From NCBI RefSeq assembly GCF_000340565.2, contig NZ_CP007203.1, forward strand, positions 3,335,929 to 3,399,928: a stretch of DNA of 64,000 nucleotides, read 5' to 3'. Origin of the DNA: Nodularia spumigena CCY9414. GTDB lineage: Bacteria > Cyanobacteriota > Cyanobacteriia > Cyanobacteriales > Nostocaceae. A model generated the notes under the pieces. The model ran no database searches, was not told where the DNA came from, and saw only the letters and a program-made list of their open reading frames with translations. Positions 35,697 to 43,712 of the stretch are shown here, in pieces; the stretch's first letter is position 1; each line of letters starts with the position of its first letter. The translations under genes and the position numbers were made by a program.

Positions 35697-38555
35697 ATGG
35701 TTAATCAAGGGAGTCCAAAGTCAAGTAATTTCGCCCAAAGACACATTGGCCCTAACACTGATGACATCCAGCGAATGCTTGAGGTTTTGGGTTTACAAAA
35801 TTTGGACTCACTGATTGAGAAAACAGTACCGCAAGGTATTCGGTTGCAAAAAACTCTGAAGTTACCAGCAGCCCAAAGTGAGTATGCAGCACTAGCAAAA
35901 TTAAAACAAATTGCTGCTAAAAATCAAGTGTGCCGTTCATATATCGGTACGGGATATTACGACTGTATCACCCCTCCGGTAATTCAACGCAATATTCTGG
36001 AAAATCCAGGTTGGTATACAGCTTACACTCCCTATCAGCCAGAAATTGCCCAAGGAAGACTGGAAGCGCTGCTGAATTTCCAGACGATGATTATTGACCT
36101 CACAGGGTTGGAAATTGCCAATGCTTCTTTACTTGATGAAGCGACAGCAGCAGCCGAAGCTATGAGTCTCAGTTATGGTGTGTGCAAAAATCATGCCAAT
36201 GCTTATTTTGTCTCTGAGAATTGCCATCCTCAAACTATCGATGTCTTAAAAACTAGGGCTAAACCCTTGGGGATTAAGATCATTATCGGTGATCATCAGA
36301 CTTATGATTTTGCTGAACCGATTTTTGGGGCTGTTCTGCAATATCCCGCCAGTGATGGCACGATTTACGACTACCGCGCTTTTATTGAAAAAGCCCATGC
36401 TGAGGGTGCATTGGTGACGGTAGCCGCCGATCCTTTAAGTTTAGCTTTACTGACACCACCAGGAGAATTTGGGGCTGATATTGCTGTGGGAAGTACCCAG
36501 CGCTTCGGTATTCCCTTGGGGTTTGGGGGACCTCATGCGGCTTACTTCGCTACGAAAGAACAGTATAAACGGCAAGTTCCAGGGCGAATTGTGGGAGTAT
36601 CAAAAGATGCTCAGGGTAAGCCCGCTTTACGTCTGGCTTTGCAAACCCGTGAACAGCACATCCGCAGGGAAAAAGCCACGAGTAATATCTGTACTGCTCA
36701 GGTGTTATTGGCAGTGATGGCGAGTATGTACGCTGTATATCATGGTGCTGATGGTATCAGAAATATTGCCGAAAATGTTCACCAGTTAACTGTGACTTTG
36801 GCAGCAGGATTGAAGCGACTGGGTTACAGCATTAGTTCTGAATATTTCTTTGATACGCTGCGAGTGGATTTAGGTACACAATCGGTCAAAGCTATTCTGG
36901 AAGCTTGTCAAGGGCGAAATATTAATCTGCGGATTTTCGATGCTACATCTGTGGGTATTTCTTTAGATGAAACTACTACACCAGAAGATTTAATTGACCT
37001 CTGGCAGATTTTCGCAGGTACAGACAATCTCCCGTTTAGCATAGAAGAATTATCCCCATCTTCTCATCTTCCCTTACCCCGTACTAGTACATATCTGACT
37101 CATCCTGTATTCAACCGCTATCACTCAGAAACTGAGTTGTTACGTTATCTGCATCAGCTAGAAACTAAGGATTTATCTTTAACGACATCGATGATTCCTT
37201 TGGGTTCATGCACTATGAAGTTGAATGCAACGGCTGAGATGATTCCGGTTTCTTGGGAGGAATTTGGTAAGATTCATCCTTTTGCGCCACCATCCCAAAC
37301 ACGGGGTTATCAAATTCTGTTCCAGCAACTTGAGGCTTGGTTGGCGGAAATTACGGGATTTGCAGGAGTTTCTCTCCAACCGAATGCAGGTTCTCAAGGG
37401 GAGTATACAGGACTTTTAGTAATTCGTCAATATCACGAAACTCGTGGGGAAGGACACCGCAATATTTGTTTGATTCCCTCCTCAGCACATGGAACAAACC
37501 CTGCTAGTGCGGTGATGTGTGGGATGAAGGTGGTTGCAGTTGCTTGTGATACATCTGGTAATATTGACCTGAATGATTTAAAGGCAAAAGCAGAAAAGCA
37601 CAGTCAGCAATTGGCGGCTTTAATGGTGACTTATCCTTCAACTCACGGTGTGTTTGAGGAAGGAATTCAGGAAATCTGCGCTGTTGTGCATGGTCACGGT
37701 GGACAAGTATATATGGATGGGGCTAATATGAATGCCCAAGTGGGTATTTGTCGTCCTGGTGATATTGGCGCTGATGTCTGTCATTTAAATCTGCACAAGA
37801 CTTTTTGTATTCCTCATGGTGGTGGTGGCCCTGGTATGGGACCCATTGGTGTGGCGGCACATCTTGTACCTTTCCTTCCTGGACACCCTGTTGTACCTAC
37901 AAATCAGCATTCTCAGATTGGGGCTGTGGCAGCTGCGCCTTGGGGTAGTGCTAGTATTTTAGTGATTTCCTGGATGTATATTGCCATGATGGGGGCTGAG
38001 GGTTTGACTCATGCAACTAAGGTGGCAATTCTCAATGCTAATTATATCGCCCACAGACTCAGTGATTACTATCCGGTGCTGTATAAGGGGAAAAATGATT
38101 TAGTTGCCCATGAGTGTATTTTAGATTTAAGGTTGCTCAAAAAATCTGCGAGTATCGAAATCGATGATATTGCCAAGCGGTTGATAGATTATGGTTTCCA
38201 TGCGCCCACTGTCTCTTGGCCTGTGGCGGGGACTATCATGGTGGAACCAACCGAAAGCGAATCGAAGGAAGAGTTAGACCGTTTCTGTGAGGCGTTGATT
38301 GCTATTCGTGGGGAAATTTCGGCCATTGAATCTGGGAAGATGGATATTCAAGATAATCTCTTGAAGAATGCACCCCATACTGCCGAAAGTTTGATTGCGG
38401 GAGAATGGAATCATGGCTATTCTCGTGAACAAGCTGCTTACCCTGCGCCTTGGACGCGTGAACATAAGTTCTGGCCGAATGTGGGCAGAATTGATGCGGC
38501 TTTTGGCGATCGCAATTTTGTTTGTTCTTGTCTGCCAATGGAGGCTGATCAGTGA
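35697..38555 (+). CDS. gcvP: Glycine dehydrogenase (decarboxylating), P protein
   Basis: A PLP enzyme that decarboxylates glycine. FAQRHIGP at the N-terminus, the glycine-rich loop region GTGYYDC, and the C-terminal half with the PLP lysine in [18 protein letters not shown] are intact. The ATG 35697 gives 952 residues, the family norm; a TTG at 35538 would add a repeat-derived extension. It is the third gene of the gcv cluster, after a 474-bp gap. Confidence 0.95.
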
Positions 38556-38852: not shown

Positions 38853-41800
38853 GTGCTTCTTCCTCTGAAGATGACAGGTGAAAAAGATTACTTGAATCTC
38901 AATATTCATGACCCAAATGGCCGTGTTCTCTCAGTTGACTTGAATTGGGATAACCTGGGGGCAAAAATCGCTCTCAAGATCCGTCAATCCTTAGACCTGG
39001 CAACGATTTTACAAACCACTGCTGACGAAGTGCATCAGCTTGTTAAGTGCGATCGCGTGCTACTCTACCAATTTGACCCAGATGGGAGCGGTCAAGTGGT
39101 GGTAGAAGCCATTTCTGACCCCCAGTGGTCATTGCTGGATCGGGTGGTGCATGATGAGTGCTTTGAGTCCTCCTGGCTGGAACCCTATCAAGAAAAGCAA
39201 ATCCGAGCGATCGCCGATGTTGCTACTGCCAACCTCACACCTTGCCATGCCGAATTTTTGGCAGGGTTTCAGGTGAAAGCCAACCTGGTGGTTCCAGTGC
39301 TGTGTACATTCGGGCTTTGGGGCTTGCTGATTGTCCATAACTGTACGGGTCCCCGCCCGTGGTTAGCTGAAGAAATGGACGGGTTGCAGCAAATTGCCGT
39401 CCATGTGGGGATAGCCATTTATCAAGCAGACTTGGTAGTACAGTTGCAAGCCGCAAAGGCAGATTTGCAAGCCCAGGTAGCAAGTCGCACGCAGGAATTA
39501 GAGCAGGCTAATCAGGAACTTTTAGCCAAAGTGGAGGAGTGCAACGAGGTCGCCACAGCACTGCACCAACGGGAAATTTTTTCACACCAGGTTCTCGATA
39601 GTTTGTTAACCTTTGTGGGGGTATTAACCTTGGATGGGGTGTTGATTGAGGCCAACCAAGCTCCCCTGGATGTCGCTGGACTCACCCGTGAGGATGTAAT
39701 TGGTAAGTTCTTTGCTGATGCCTACTGGTGGAGCTACTCAACGGATGCACAGGCACAAATTCGTGAGGCGATCGCCCAAGCTAGCCAAGGAAAATCCGTG
39801 GGGTTTGATATTCCGGTGCAGGTGCAAGGAGGCGATCGCATCATGATCGACTTTTCCCTCAAACCCCTGCGTGATGCCACCGGGCAGATCACTCATCTGA
39901 TTCCCTCCGGCGTTGATATCACCCAACGCAAACAAGCAGAAATCGCCTTGCGCCAAAGCCGAGACGAACAATTTCAACTGGCGGCGATTGTGGAATCGTC
40001 CCAGGATGCGATTATTAGCAAAACCCTTGATGGCAAGATCACCAGTTGGAATCAGGCAGCAGAACAATTACTTGGCTATACGGCCTTTGAAGCCATCGGT
40101 CAGCAAATCACAATGTTGATCCCAGTAGAGCGCCAGTCTGAAGCCGCATTGATTTTACAGCGCATCCACCGAGGGGAGCGAGTTGATAGCTATGAAACCC
40201 AACGGCAACACAAGGATGGCAGCTTAGTAGATGTAGCGTTAACGATTTCCCCGATTCGGGATGAAAACGGTGTGGTAATTGGCGCATCGAAAATTGCCAG
40301 GGATATTCGCGATCGCAAACGCCTGGAAGCTGAACGAAACCAAGCCGAACTTCAGCAGCGCCAGAGCAACGCCCAACTGGAAGATTTCTTTGACAATGCC
40401 AGCGACCTGATCCAGAGCGTCTCGTTGCAGGATGGGCGGTTTCTCTATGTTAACCGCGCCTGGCTCACCACTCTAGGCTACCAGCGCGATGAACTTGCCG
40501 CCTTGACTATCTTTAACCTGATTGCCCCTGACTGTCTCCGGGATTGTCAAGGGATCTTCCAGGAATTGCAATCGGGAGCAGTTGACTATGTTGAGCGATG
40601 GGAAATTGCCTTTGTTAGTAAAACAGGGCAGAAGATTCTCCTCGAAGGTAGTATCAATGTCCGCTATCAAGCAGGGATACCCATTGCCACCCGCGCCATC
40701 TTGCGGGATGTGACAGCCCAACGCCGGGTGGAAAAAACTCTCCAAGAGCAAGCAACGATTCTCCGCATTTTCTATGAGTCGTCCCCCCTAATTCTGGGAG
40801 TGGTGGAATTGTCAGACAATGACATTCTCCATACACACCATAACCCGGCCAATCTCCAGTTTTTTGGGGTTTCTCCCGCAGCCCTCGACCACAAATGGGC
40901 TAGTGAAATTGGAGTTCCATCAGAACATATACAGCGTTGGTTGTTTCACTACCACCAAAGCCAGGAAATGCAACAGCCGGTTCAATTTGAATATGAACAT
41001 AAAACCGAGGTTCGCACTTACTATTTGTCAGCTGTAGTTCAATTTATCGGCATTGCCAACAGTGGGCGATCGCAATTTTCTTATACGGTGCAAGATATTA
41101 GTGAACGCAAACAACTGGAAATTGAACATCAGCGTGTAGAAGCAATGGAGCGCCAGGCTGAACAAGTCAGCCATGAACTCAAATTCCTGGAGAATATTTT
41201 AGATATCGTTTTGGCAGGCTATTGGGATTGGAATATTCGGGACAATCAAGCATACTTCAGCCCCGGCTTTAAACGAATGTTTGGCTACGATGATCACGAA
41301 CTCCCAAATTTACCAGACACTTGGCAAAAACTGATCTTTCCAGAGGATTTAACCAGGGCATTAGTCGGTGTTGAGGAACATATTCAAAGTCGTGGGGAGA
41401 TTCCCTACTACAACGAAGTCAGATATCGTCACAAGGATGGCTCAACGGTTTGGGTGATGTGTTCGGGACAGGTGATTGAGTGGGATTACCGTCGTTATCC
41501 CATTCGGATGATTGGTTGTCATATTGACATTACCGATCGCAAACAAGCAGAAAATAACATCCGCCACATTAACCTGGTATTGGAAAACGTTGTGGAAGGC
41601 ATTGCCCGTTTAGATGTTACCGGGCGATACATCAGCGTTAACCCCGCCTATGCGGCGATTTGCGGCTACGAACCCGATCAATTAATCGGTCAGATATGGA
41701 CGCTGACAGTTTATGCAGAGGATTTACAGGCTCTGGAATCGGCCTATGAAACCATGCTGCAAACGGGCAAGGTAGATGTTGAAGCCAGAGGGGTGCGTCA

Positions 41801-43712
41801 GGATGGCTCTCTGTTTTACAAGCAGGTGATCATGATTACAAACCACGATGAGCAGGGCGCATTCATCGGGCATTATTGTTTTCTCAAAGATATCAGCGAT
41901 CGCAAATACAGTGAACAGCAACTAGCCGCCAGCGAAGCCCGCTATCGCAACATCATTGAAACGACTATGGAAGGGGTGTGGATGCTGGATGCAGAGGGCA
42001 AAACCACCTTTGTAAACCAGAGGATGGCAGATATGATGGGCTACACTGCGGCCCAGATGGCAGGTACTACGCTGATGGATTTGATTGCTCTGGCTGACCG
42101 CCCCCAAGCCCAAATCTATCTAGAAAAGCGAGAGCAGGGCATTCAGGAACAGCATCCCTTCAAGTTTCAGCGTCAGGATGGAACTCCTCTGTGGGCGATT
42201 GTCTCAGCTACACCGATGTTAGATGACCAAAGCAACTTCATGGGGATAACTGGCTTACTCACCGACATTACCGAACTTGTCACTGTTCAAGAGGCACTCA
42301 AATCTTCCCAGATCCAACTGACGAGTGTTTTAAATAGTTCTTTGGATGGGATTATGGCGTTTCGGGCGGTACGTGATGACCAGGGGATAATTATTGATTT
42401 TGAATGGTTGTTAAGTAATCCCGCCGCCTGTCAAATGGTGGGGCGGTCATCGGAGCAACTGATTGGTAAACGGTTACTGGTGGAAATGCCTGGAAACCGA
42501 AAGGAAGGACTATTTGATGAGTATGTCAATGTGGTGGAATCAGAGAAACCTTATAAAAGGGAATTCTACTACAACCACGATGGCATTGAGTCTTGGTTTG
42601 AAAATATTGCGGTCAAACTAGAAGATGGTTTTGCTGTCACCTTCCGGGATATAACGGCAATCAGACAATCGGAACAGGCGATTCAGCAAGTGAATCAACA
42701 ACTGCAAGAACGGGTTGCCGACCTTGACCAACGCCATGCAGAAATGTTGATCTTGAGCGAAATCAGCGATTTTCTCCAAGCTAGCCTGACGGTGGCAGAA
42801 GCCTGTAATGCTCTGTGCAGTTTGTTACAACCCTTGTTTCCTGACTGTTCCGGGGCAGTGTTTATTACCAATTCGTCTCGTAACCGCGTGGAGATGGTGT
42901 CCTCTTGGGGCGATTCCCTACAATCTGCACCGGACTTTCACCCCCAGGATTGCTGGGCTTTGCGGCGGGGCAGGTTACATACTTGTAACCACCATCAATC
43001 AGGGCTGCGCTGTCAGCATATCCCGGCAGATGAGGCGATCGCCACCACTCTGTGCATCCCGATGATTGCCCAGGGTGAGACTTTGGGTTTGTTTTATCTG
43101 AGTACCAATAACTCTACGGCCCTACCCGATGCTAAACTACAAATTGCTCGCACTGTTGCCGAACAGGTGGCTCTGGCGATCGCCAATCTCAATCTGCGCG
43201 AAACCTTACAATATCAAAGCATCCGCGATCCCCTCACGGGTTTATATAATCGACGCTATCTCGAAGAAGTTTTGACTCAAGAAATTGCCCGTGGCCAACG
43301 TCGCCAACACCCCATCAGTGTGGTGATGATTGATGTGGATTACTTTAAGCGGTTCAATGATACCTACGGTCATGATGTGGGGGACTATGTGCTGCAAACC
43401 ATTGGCGCAATGCTCAAAGAGACTGTGCGTGGGTCAGATATTGCCTGTCGCTATGGGGGAGAAGAAATGACTCTGATTCTGCCCGAATCTTCTCTAGAGG
43501 AAACCACCATTAAGGCAGAAGAGATTCGGGAGGCGATCGCTCAACTGACTCTTGCTTACAACGGACAGCATTTGGGTAAACTCACTATATCACTGGGTAT
43601 CGCAGGCTTCCCGAAGCACGGCACAACAGGCATAGCCCTGATACAAGCTGCTGATGCTGCCCTCTACCGTGCCAAAGCCGCCGGACGCAATCAAGTTGTA
43701 GTTGCACCGTGA
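38853..43712 (+). CDS. Candidate DXCF cyanobacteriochrome with eight PAS, GAF and GGDEF domains
   Basis: Predicted light-responsive diguanylate cyclase of 1619 residues. GAF1 (about 42-195) has the DXCF motif (D101-E-C103-F104) and a canonical Cys131-His132 (LTPCHAEFL), 28 residues apart as in TePixJ. A coiled coil (195-245), eight PAS domains (about 244-361, 372-489, 509-626, 636-754, 779-897, 906-1019, 1029-1146, 1156-1276), a second GAF (1296-1447) and GGDEF (1456-1619) follow. The active loop is GGEEM and an RGSD inhibitory site lies five residues before it. There is no EAL domain. Start is GTG; ATG 38871 is an alternative. It looks more GC-rich than its neighbours. Confidence 0.88.
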   Translation: MLLPLKMTGEKDYLNLNIHDPNGRVLSVDLNWDNLGAKIALKIRQSLDLATILQTTADEVHQLVKCDRVLLYQFDPDGSGQVVVEAISDPQWSLLDRVVHDECFESSWLEPYQEKQIRAIADVATANLTPCHAEFLAGFQVKANLVVPVLCTFGLWGLLIVHNCTGPRPWLAEEMDGLQQIAVHVGIAIYQADLVVQLQAAKADLQAQVASRTQELEQANQELLAKVEECNEVATALHQREIFSHQVLDSLLTFVGVLTLDGVLIEANQAPLDVAGLTREDVIGKFFADAYWWSYSTDAQAQIREAIAQASQGKSVGFDIPVQVQGGDRIMIDFSLKPLRDATGQITHLIPSGVDITQRKQAEIALRQSRDEQFQLAAIVESSQDAIISKTLDGKITSWNQAAEQLLGYTAFEAIGQQITMLIPVERQSEAALILQRIHRGERVDSYETQRQHKDGSLVDVALTISPIRDENGVVIGASKIARDIRDRKRLEAERNQAELQQRQSNAQLEDFFDNASDLIQSVSLQDGRFLYVNRAWLTTLGYQRDELAALTIFNLIAPDCLRDCQGIFQELQSGAVDYVERWEIAFVSKTGQKILLEGSINVRYQAGIPIATRAILRDVTAQRRVEKTLQEQATILRIFYESSPLILGVVELSDNDILHTHHNPANLQFFGVSPAALDHKWASEIGVPSEHIQRWLFHYHQSQEMQQPVQFEYEHKTEVRTYYLSAVVQFIGIANSGRSQFSYTVQDISERKQLEIEHQRVEAMERQAEQVSHELKFLENILDIVLAGYWDWNIRDNQAYFSPGFKRMFGYDDHELPNLPDTWQKLIFPEDLTRALVGVEEHIQSRGEIPYYNEVRYRHKDGSTVWVMCSGQVIEWDYRRYPIRMIGCHIDITDRKQAENNIRHINLVLENVVEGIARLDVTGRYISVNPAYAAICGYEPDQLIGQIWTLTVYAEDLQALESAYETMLQTGKVDVEARGVRQDGSLFYKQVIMITNHDEQGAFIGHYCFLKDISDRKYSEQQLAASEARYRNIIETTMEGVWMLDAEGKTTFVNQRMADMMGYTAAQMAGTTLMDLIALADRPQAQIYLEKREQGIQEQHPFKFQRQDGTPLWAIVSATPMLDDQSNFMGITGLLTDITELVTVQEALKSSQIQLTSVLNSSLDGIMAFRAVRDDQGIIIDFEWLLSNPAACQMVGRSSEQLIGKRLLVEMPGNRKEGLFDEYVNVVESEKPYKREFYYNHDGIESWFENIAVKLEDGFAVTFRDITAIRQSEQAIQQVNQQLQERVADLDQRHAEMLILSEISDFLQASLTVAEACNALCSLLQPLFPDCSGAVFITNSSRNRVEMVSSWGDSLQSAPDFHPQDCWALRRGRLHTCNHHQSGLRCQHIPADEAIATTLCIPMIAQGETLGLFYLSTNNSTALPDAKLQIARTVAEQVALAIANLNLRETLQYQSIRDPLTGLYNRRYLEEVLTQEIARGQRRQHPISVVMIDVDYFKRFNDTYGHDVGDYVLQTIGAMLKETVRGSDIACRYGGEEMTLILPESSLEETTIKAEEIREAIAQLTLAYNGQHLGKLTISLGIAGFPKHGTTGIALIQAADAALYRAKAAGRNQVVVAP

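Follow-up and report, generated by a model that had tools for sequence, protein, structure and literature searches.

In Nodularia spumigena CCY9414 we found a gene whose assignment as a DXCF cyanobacteriochrome-diguanylate cyclase is well supported by sequence comparison, and which quite probably encodes a light-regulated diguanylate cyclase, with a sensor of blue and most likely green light acting through an array of PAS domains. The gene lies in a stretch of 64,000 nucleotides (the window, meaning the whole stretch analysed) and is an intact open reading frame (ORF) of 1619 codons, counted from a GTG, with no internal stop (Table 1). An in-frame ATG at 38871 could equally well serve as the start and may be the true one, because the N terminus is conserved only from about residue 30 on. 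On the upstream side the gcvP ORF ends at 38555, leaving 297 bases before the gene; the downstream ORF, for a TPR protein, lies on the opposite strand, so that the gene looks monocistronic.

Domain layout of the protein

Pfam places GAF1 at residues 48-189, GAF2 at 1312-1444 and GGDEF at 1457-1614. The initial annotation had read eight PAS domains and a second GAF between GAF1 and GGDEF, and this layout was recovered: besides GAF2, the sensory_box model of NCBIfam (TIGR00229) counts eight PAS stretches, seven of which exceed the cut-off in a segment-by-segment Pfam search, PAS4 falling below it (17.3 bits against 27). Neither Pfam nor NCBIfam finds an EAL domain. Among the best 25 of 47 NCBIfam families no equivalog exceeds its cut-off, the domain models sensory_box and GGDEF being the only ones to do so. 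LOV-type light PAS domains were considered and rejected, the string NCR[FVI]L occurring in neither the window protein nor any of the 18 relatives described below.

Table 1. Features of the gene and of the encoded protein, in window coordinates.
Feature	Position	Strand	Evidence or remark
Whole ORF, 1619 aa	38853..43712	+	GTG start; in-frame ATG 38871 possible
GAF1, DXCF cyanobacteriochrome GAF (putative), residues ~36-195	38958..39437	+	Pfam, PDB match, tree, fold
DECF motif, second cysteine C103	39153..39164	+	Aligned with TePixJ DPCF; C in 19/19
Canonical chromophore cysteine C131 + H132	39243..39248	+	C in 19/19
GAF1-PAS1 linker, apparently helical	39438..39587	+	Sequence
PAS1	39597..39935	+	PAS_4 E 1.2e-13
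PAS2	39978..40307	+	PAS E 6.4e-20
PAS3	40374..40718	+	PAS_9 E 1.5e-10
PAS4, below Pfam cut-off	40836..41105	+	PAS_9 E 0.006; TIGR00229 counts 8
PAS5	41250..41519	+	PAS_3 E 5.9e-22
PAS6	41565..41894	+	PAS_9 E 2.6e-12
PAS7	41940..42269	+	PAS E 2.4e-17
PAS8	42396..42662	+	PAS_4 E 3.2e-8
GAF2, probably not a bilin GAF; CWALRRGRLH...C.H motif	42786..43184	+	Pfam, PDB null, alignment
GGDEF, predicted diguanylate cyclase domain	43221..43694	+	Pfam E 5.2e-52; PleD E 7.8e-37
RGSD, inhibitory (I) site, residues 1526-1529	43428..43439	+	Aligned with PleD RAID
GGEEM, active-site loop, residues 1535-1539	43455..43469	+	Aligned with PleD GGEEF

GAF1 as a DXCF cyanobacteriochrome domain

Motif, similarity and fold together give good support to the assignment of GAF1 as a cyanobacteriochrome-type GAF of the DXCF class. 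GAF1 carries D101-E-C103-F together with C131-H132, the cysteines lying 28 residues apart. Both motifs had been read in this form before, and both cysteines align without gaps with those of TePixJ (PDB 3VV4, 4GLQ), which has the DXCF motif, the Cys-His pair and the same spacing. TePixJ differs in being annotated as a chemotaxis receptor and in being only 36% identical to GAF1.

The top match of GAF1 in the PDB is the cyanobacteriochrome 6OAP (E 4.3e-43), with TePixJ at E 6.3e-30, and natural phytochrome GAFs match more weakly (best 8W26, E 4.5e-25; Cph2, E 1.6e-12). At E ≤ 0.001 there are 101 matching PDB sequences, the best 60 of which are nearly all, judged by name, cyanobacteriochromes, phytochromes or engineered derivatives. 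The AlphaFold model of GAF1, built from four sequences, has a mean pLDDT of 69.1, and drops below 50 at model residues 81-104 (protein residues 105-128), between the cysteines; it is therefore no test of the pocket and was used for the fold match only. Foldseek with this model puts the 6OAP-series chains and one engineered cyanobacteriochrome in the lead, the phytochrome GAF 8W26 at rank 8, and TePixJ chains in the list at TM 0.65-0.71 over the query. The initial annotation had named a position outside the cyanobacteriochromes as one result that would overturn it; by similarity the best PDB match and the best fold match are both cyanobacteriochromes. Among solved structures the 6OAP GAF of a dual-sensor histidine kinase is nearest to GAF1 in both sequence (46% identity over 162 columns) and fold; it differs from GAF1 in lacking the second cysteine (DQYF) and in its kinase output.

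Comparison of GAF1 with its 18 relatives, which were picked by similarity to it and are hence not an unbiased sample for motif conservation, shows 22 of 198 positions to be invariant, among them D101, C103, D122 and C131. F104 is Phe in 18 of the 19 domains and Leu in one (DSCL). On the strength of this conservation a chance cysteine motif was rejected, with the reservation that the relatives had been chosen by similarity. The residue following the canonical cysteine is His in 12 domains and Tyr in the other seven (L043, L051, L052, L079, L081, L082 and L083), a replacement that may point to a shift of colour inside a single family. W108, retained in 16 of the 19, aligns with TePixJ W499, which holds the B-ring propionate (PMC6955287). 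At the other contacts, H498 of TePixJ is replaced by S107 and R507 by Q116, although the R507 contact in the TePixJ crystal was supplied solely by an adjacent molecule (PMC6955287). By analogy with this class, we infer that GAF1 binds a bilin.

Phylogeny of GAF1

The tree of GAF1 comprises 63 rows, including six PDB references, and was built by a quick IQ-TREE run with SH-aLRT as the only support measure and no phytochrome outgroup. Omitted from it were duplicates (L001, L013, L014), a truncated sequence (L010), domain matches scoring less than 40 bits (L011 among them), and further PDB chains. GAF1 and its relatives fall inside a 36-row set with a support of 95, which also holds RcaE, while three red/green (XRG) references lie across a branch of support 75 from GAF1. 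TePixJ, on a long branch, and 6OAP fall outside the 36-row set without a resolved position, and the immediate group of GAF1 holds none of the six PDB references. Ten orthologue-like rows share one side of a branch with a support of 20. The D-x-C-F motif and the canonical cysteine occur together in 47 of the 63 rows, a figure inflated by the choice of rows by similarity.

The tree thus agrees with the DXCF assignment without proving it, and carries no colour information. The likeness to TePixJ that had been proposed stands for the motif and the cysteine spacing; it does not extend to kinship, since the two domains share 36% identity over 146 columns and are not grouped. Sisterhood of GAF1 and TePixJ, considered as a candidate, was not recovered among the 63 rows.

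Relatives and architecture across cyanobacteria

Scanning genome contigs with GAF1 gave five loci, three of them close: Anabaena sp. UHCC 0204 (74%), Leptolyngbya sp. DLM2.Bin15 (68%, truncated where the DNA ends) and a pond MAG (66%). The remaining two were excluded from all counts (33% identity for one, 53% over residues 171-207 only for the other). At E ≤ 1e-55, related domains occur in at least 17 places in at least 16 of 388 genomes of the order, the genome studied here included, a lower bound as up to seven candidates were scored per genome. Leaving out the gene itself and one duplicate (G397/L050) and adding the three close loci yields the 18 relatives, all of which were counted.

GGEEM with an RxxD starting nine residues before it is present in 10 of the 19 proteins, the window protein included, which argues that sensor and cyclase travel together. 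Among the other nine, one (L051) is cut off, one (L079) lacks the motif, a kinase box is loosely matched in four, and three show neither. Since four of the 18 relatives carry GAF1 beside such a kinase-box match, the domain is not confined to cyclases; it lies further inside, from residue 307 on, in six relatives whose output is another. L079 (L079:915-3407) encodes 831 aa with DSCL instead of DXCF and similarity to GAF2 and GGDEF (70%), and has no match to GG[DE]E[FML].

Five GGDEF-ended relatives are 1594-1644 aa long (L042, L050, L076, L077 and L078), with identities of 59-85% in GAF1, 68-96% in PAS8 and 70-91% in GGDEF. In L078 no match to PAS2 was found, and those to PAS6 and PAS7 are weak and positioned elsewhere. 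Four others are shorter, at 1191-1344 aa (L043, L052, L081 and L083). The per-domain matches therefore indicate that the GAF1 front and the PAS8-GAF2-GGDEF rear are kept and that the middle PAS set changes. Judged by these matches, the long predicted form GAF1-PAS array-GAF2-GGDEF recurs in several cyanobacteria. The orthologue in Anabaena sp. UHCC 0204 (L050) matches in GAF1, PAS1-8, GAF2 and GGDEF at 75-96% per domain and in the linker at 55%; it differs in having a DTCF motif and none of five tested window neighbour genes in its flanks.

One copy in the same genus has gcvH and gcvP upstream and a TPR gene downstream, matching the window order. As this copy follows the same gcvH-gcvP genes, we conclude that the gene is inherited and not a stray fusion. 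At seven other loci compared, some with little flank (L051, L052 and L076-L078), the window neighbour genes were absent except for a weak TPR match in L043.

Predicted colour of the photocycle

If GAF1 is photoactive, analogy with its class makes a green photoproduct the better expectation, and an orange or other one a lesser prospect, though a considerable one. Aligned with NpR6012g4, which served as guide to the beta2 and helix-4 teal positions, GAF1 has Val82 at beta2 and Phe139 at helix 4. Across the 19 domains beta2 is Val in 16 and Ile in 3, and helix 4 is Phe in 16 and Leu in 3. Teal DXCF domains are described as having Phe at both positions (PMC5240096); a teal reading is less likely here, only Phe139 fitting the rule. 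More generally, the second cysteine of DXCF domains is reported to join in isomerisation to phycoviolobilin and to add to C10, giving a typical blue/green cycle (PMC11284453), with teal, yellow or orange photoproducts in other members (PMC5240096, PMC5578081).

One of the two alternatives that survive best is a DXCF cyanobacteriochrome-cyclase that is not blue/green, phycocyanobilin being kept or otherwise tuned to give a blue/orange, blue/yellow or similar cycle. We consider it possible but not favoured: such variety among DXCF members (PMC5578081, PMC5240096), the absence of PDB references from the immediate group of GAF1 and the Tyr of seven domains in 19 all fit it, but the window GAF1 has the Cys-His of TePixJ, typical DXCF domains isomerise to phycoviolobilin (PMC11284453), and Val82, with Phe139 alone, disfavours the teal variant. 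The blue/green assignment, for a domain neither close to TePixJ in identity nor grouped with it, is likely but weaker than the DXCF-cyclase assignment.

Cyclase output, GAF2 and a proposed mechanism

The GGDEF domain aligns with PleD across the metal and GTP residues. Its active loop, GGEEM, has Met where GGEEF of PleD has Phe, and RGSD, beginning nine residues ahead of this loop, stands in place of RAID. The initial annotation had described a C-terminal GGDEF with GGEEM and RxxD and without EAL, all of which was found (Pfam, PleD alignment). These alignments support a predicted diguanylate cyclase with active and inhibitory sites.

GAF2 has no PDB sequence match at E 0.1 and is therefore probably not a second bilin GAF. 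It bears the signature C-W-[AGS]-L-R-R-G-[RK], followed further on by C-x-H; the two cysteines and the His of C-x-H are present in all ten aligned proteins, that of the window included. GAF2 looks like a distinct type of GAF preceding GGDEF.

We propose, from what is described for the DXCF family, that C131 would carry phycocyanobilin at ring A and that in the dark C103 would add to C10, yielding a blue-absorbing state; C103 probably also helps the isomerisation of phycocyanobilin to phycoviolobilin. Blue light would flip the 15,16 bond and release C103, producing a longer-wave, most likely green-absorbing state. This change could pass via the C-terminal helix of GAF1 into the PAS array, which may contribute further inputs, and would alter the pairing of GGDEF in a dimer, with feedback by c-di-GMP via RGSD. 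If SesA is a guide, blue light would raise c-di-GMP synthesis. Light would thereby control the cyclase from GAF1 across about 1,260 residues.

This distance, with nine sensor domains in between, is also what gives room to the second of the two alternatives, namely that GAF1 binds bilin and switches, yet the PAS domains and GAF2 mainly set the cyclase and the effect of light is small. Such control would suit the variation of the middle PAS set among the GGDEF-ended relatives and the retention of PAS8-GAF2-GGDEF, as if these were the working core. On the other hand, each of the nine GGDEF-ended relatives has GAF1 near its N terminus with the two cysteines present, which counts against an idle sensor, as such a sensor would be expected to decay. 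We find this alternative rather doubtful, and prefer a cyclase under the control of GAF1. Finally, that GAF1 is a non-photoactive GAF, its cysteines kept for redox or as a relic, is very improbable: S107 in place of the propionate contact H498 fits it, but D101, C103 and C131 are invariant in all 19 domains, Trp108 is kept in 16, and the genome has genes for making phycocyanobilin.

Bilin supply and c-di-GMP genes in the genome

The genome (5.46 Mb, one contig) encodes one PcyA (375 bits against an equivalog cut-off of 206) and one heme oxygenase. Our census of c-di-GMP genes, which covered GGDEF, EAL and ComFB, counted five GGDEF matches, three of them complete: the window gene, a REC-GGDEF gene and an FHA-GAF-GGDEF-EAL gene, which holds the only EAL of the genome. 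The window gene is hence one of two complete GGDEF genes without EAL. There is one gene of the ComFB family, which we take to hold cyanobacterial c-di-GMP receptors. Four genomes of the same genus have five to eight GGDEF matches each, so that the count here is low but not far off. The two GGDEF remnants lie in short frames (L091:1421-1885, minus strand; L092:1511-1732, plus strand), one in which the latter part of a GGDEF follows a weakly matching fragment of a receiver domain, the other a 74-codon frame with 49 GGDEF residues. By described build only, the REC-GGDEF and FHA-GAF-GGDEF-EAL genes resemble CdgS and CdgSH of Anabaena 7120, a strain reported to have 16 c-di-GMP metabolism genes, with CdgS as REC-GGDEF and CdgSH as FHA-PAS-GAF-GGDEF-EAL (PMC8682488); unlike CdgSH, the gene here has no PAS reported by Pfam.

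GAF1 matches number 12 in this genome versus 26-38 in four congeners, which suggests that it has fewer photosensors than they do. One frame of 929 aa (C1:3246455-3248092; L006, L007, L009) has three GAFs, one of which pairs with AnPixJg2 at 98, so that we read it as a PixJ-like red/green receptor.

The host is presumably a nitrogen fixer of Nostocaceae type, with nifH above cut-off and a HetR-family gene, its assigned family also containing Anabaena sp. UHCC 0204. Beside a complete nifH (C1:3510260-3511081) there is a split one (L097:456-6450; C1:4102855-4108849). Its two pieces share a strand and are separated by about 5.2 kb; one covers profile positions 1-141, its match containing one TAA, and the other 137-274. 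Within the insert are an ORF of 475 aa that resembles an integrase, on the opposite strand, and one of 882 aa that resembles a methyltransferase (judged by eye). The insert has the look of a heterocyst excision element; the best 20 of 36 repeat families included no junction repeat. The plasmid search gave 25 records, all below 60% identity.

Relation to known systems and significance

SesA of Thermosynechococcus, which we take to be Tlr0924, resembles the window protein in joining a cyanobacteriochrome GAF and a GGDEF on one chain. To our knowledge it is without the array of eight PAS domains and GAF2, a comparison made by description. The gene kind is therefore already known from SesA, and the window gene is a longer, recurrent architecture of that kind. 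SesA is described as a blue-light-responsive cyanobacteriochrome cyclase (PMC9090330), and Tlr0924 as having a DXCF blue/green domain (PMC5578081). Our search of titles and abstract openings, with most subscription papers outside its coverage, found no DXCF cyclase with an eight-PAS array.

Light-gated c-di-GMP synthesis is reported to control aggregation and phototaxis in the unicellular Thermosynechococcus (PMC9090330). In the filamentous Anabaena 7120, c-di-GMP is reported to be essential (PMC13075795) and to affect cell size and heterocysts (PMC13075795, PMC8682488), and the available text of these two papers names no photoreceptor for it. Since complete GGDEF genes number three in the genome studied here and EAL genes one, the window gene may be a major light-set source of c-di-GMP in a nitrogen fixer. 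More speculatively, and we regard it as unlikely, blue/green light quality could be one of the main determinants of the c-di-GMP pool in this small network and, by way of the pool, of cell size or the maintenance of heterocysts, the eight PAS domains serving as a coincidence gate on light. With one of only three complete GGDEF genes bearing a DXCF sensor, the link from light to c-di-GMP is testable by a single deletion, and the gene is a natural test of a photosensor driving its output across nine other sensor domains.
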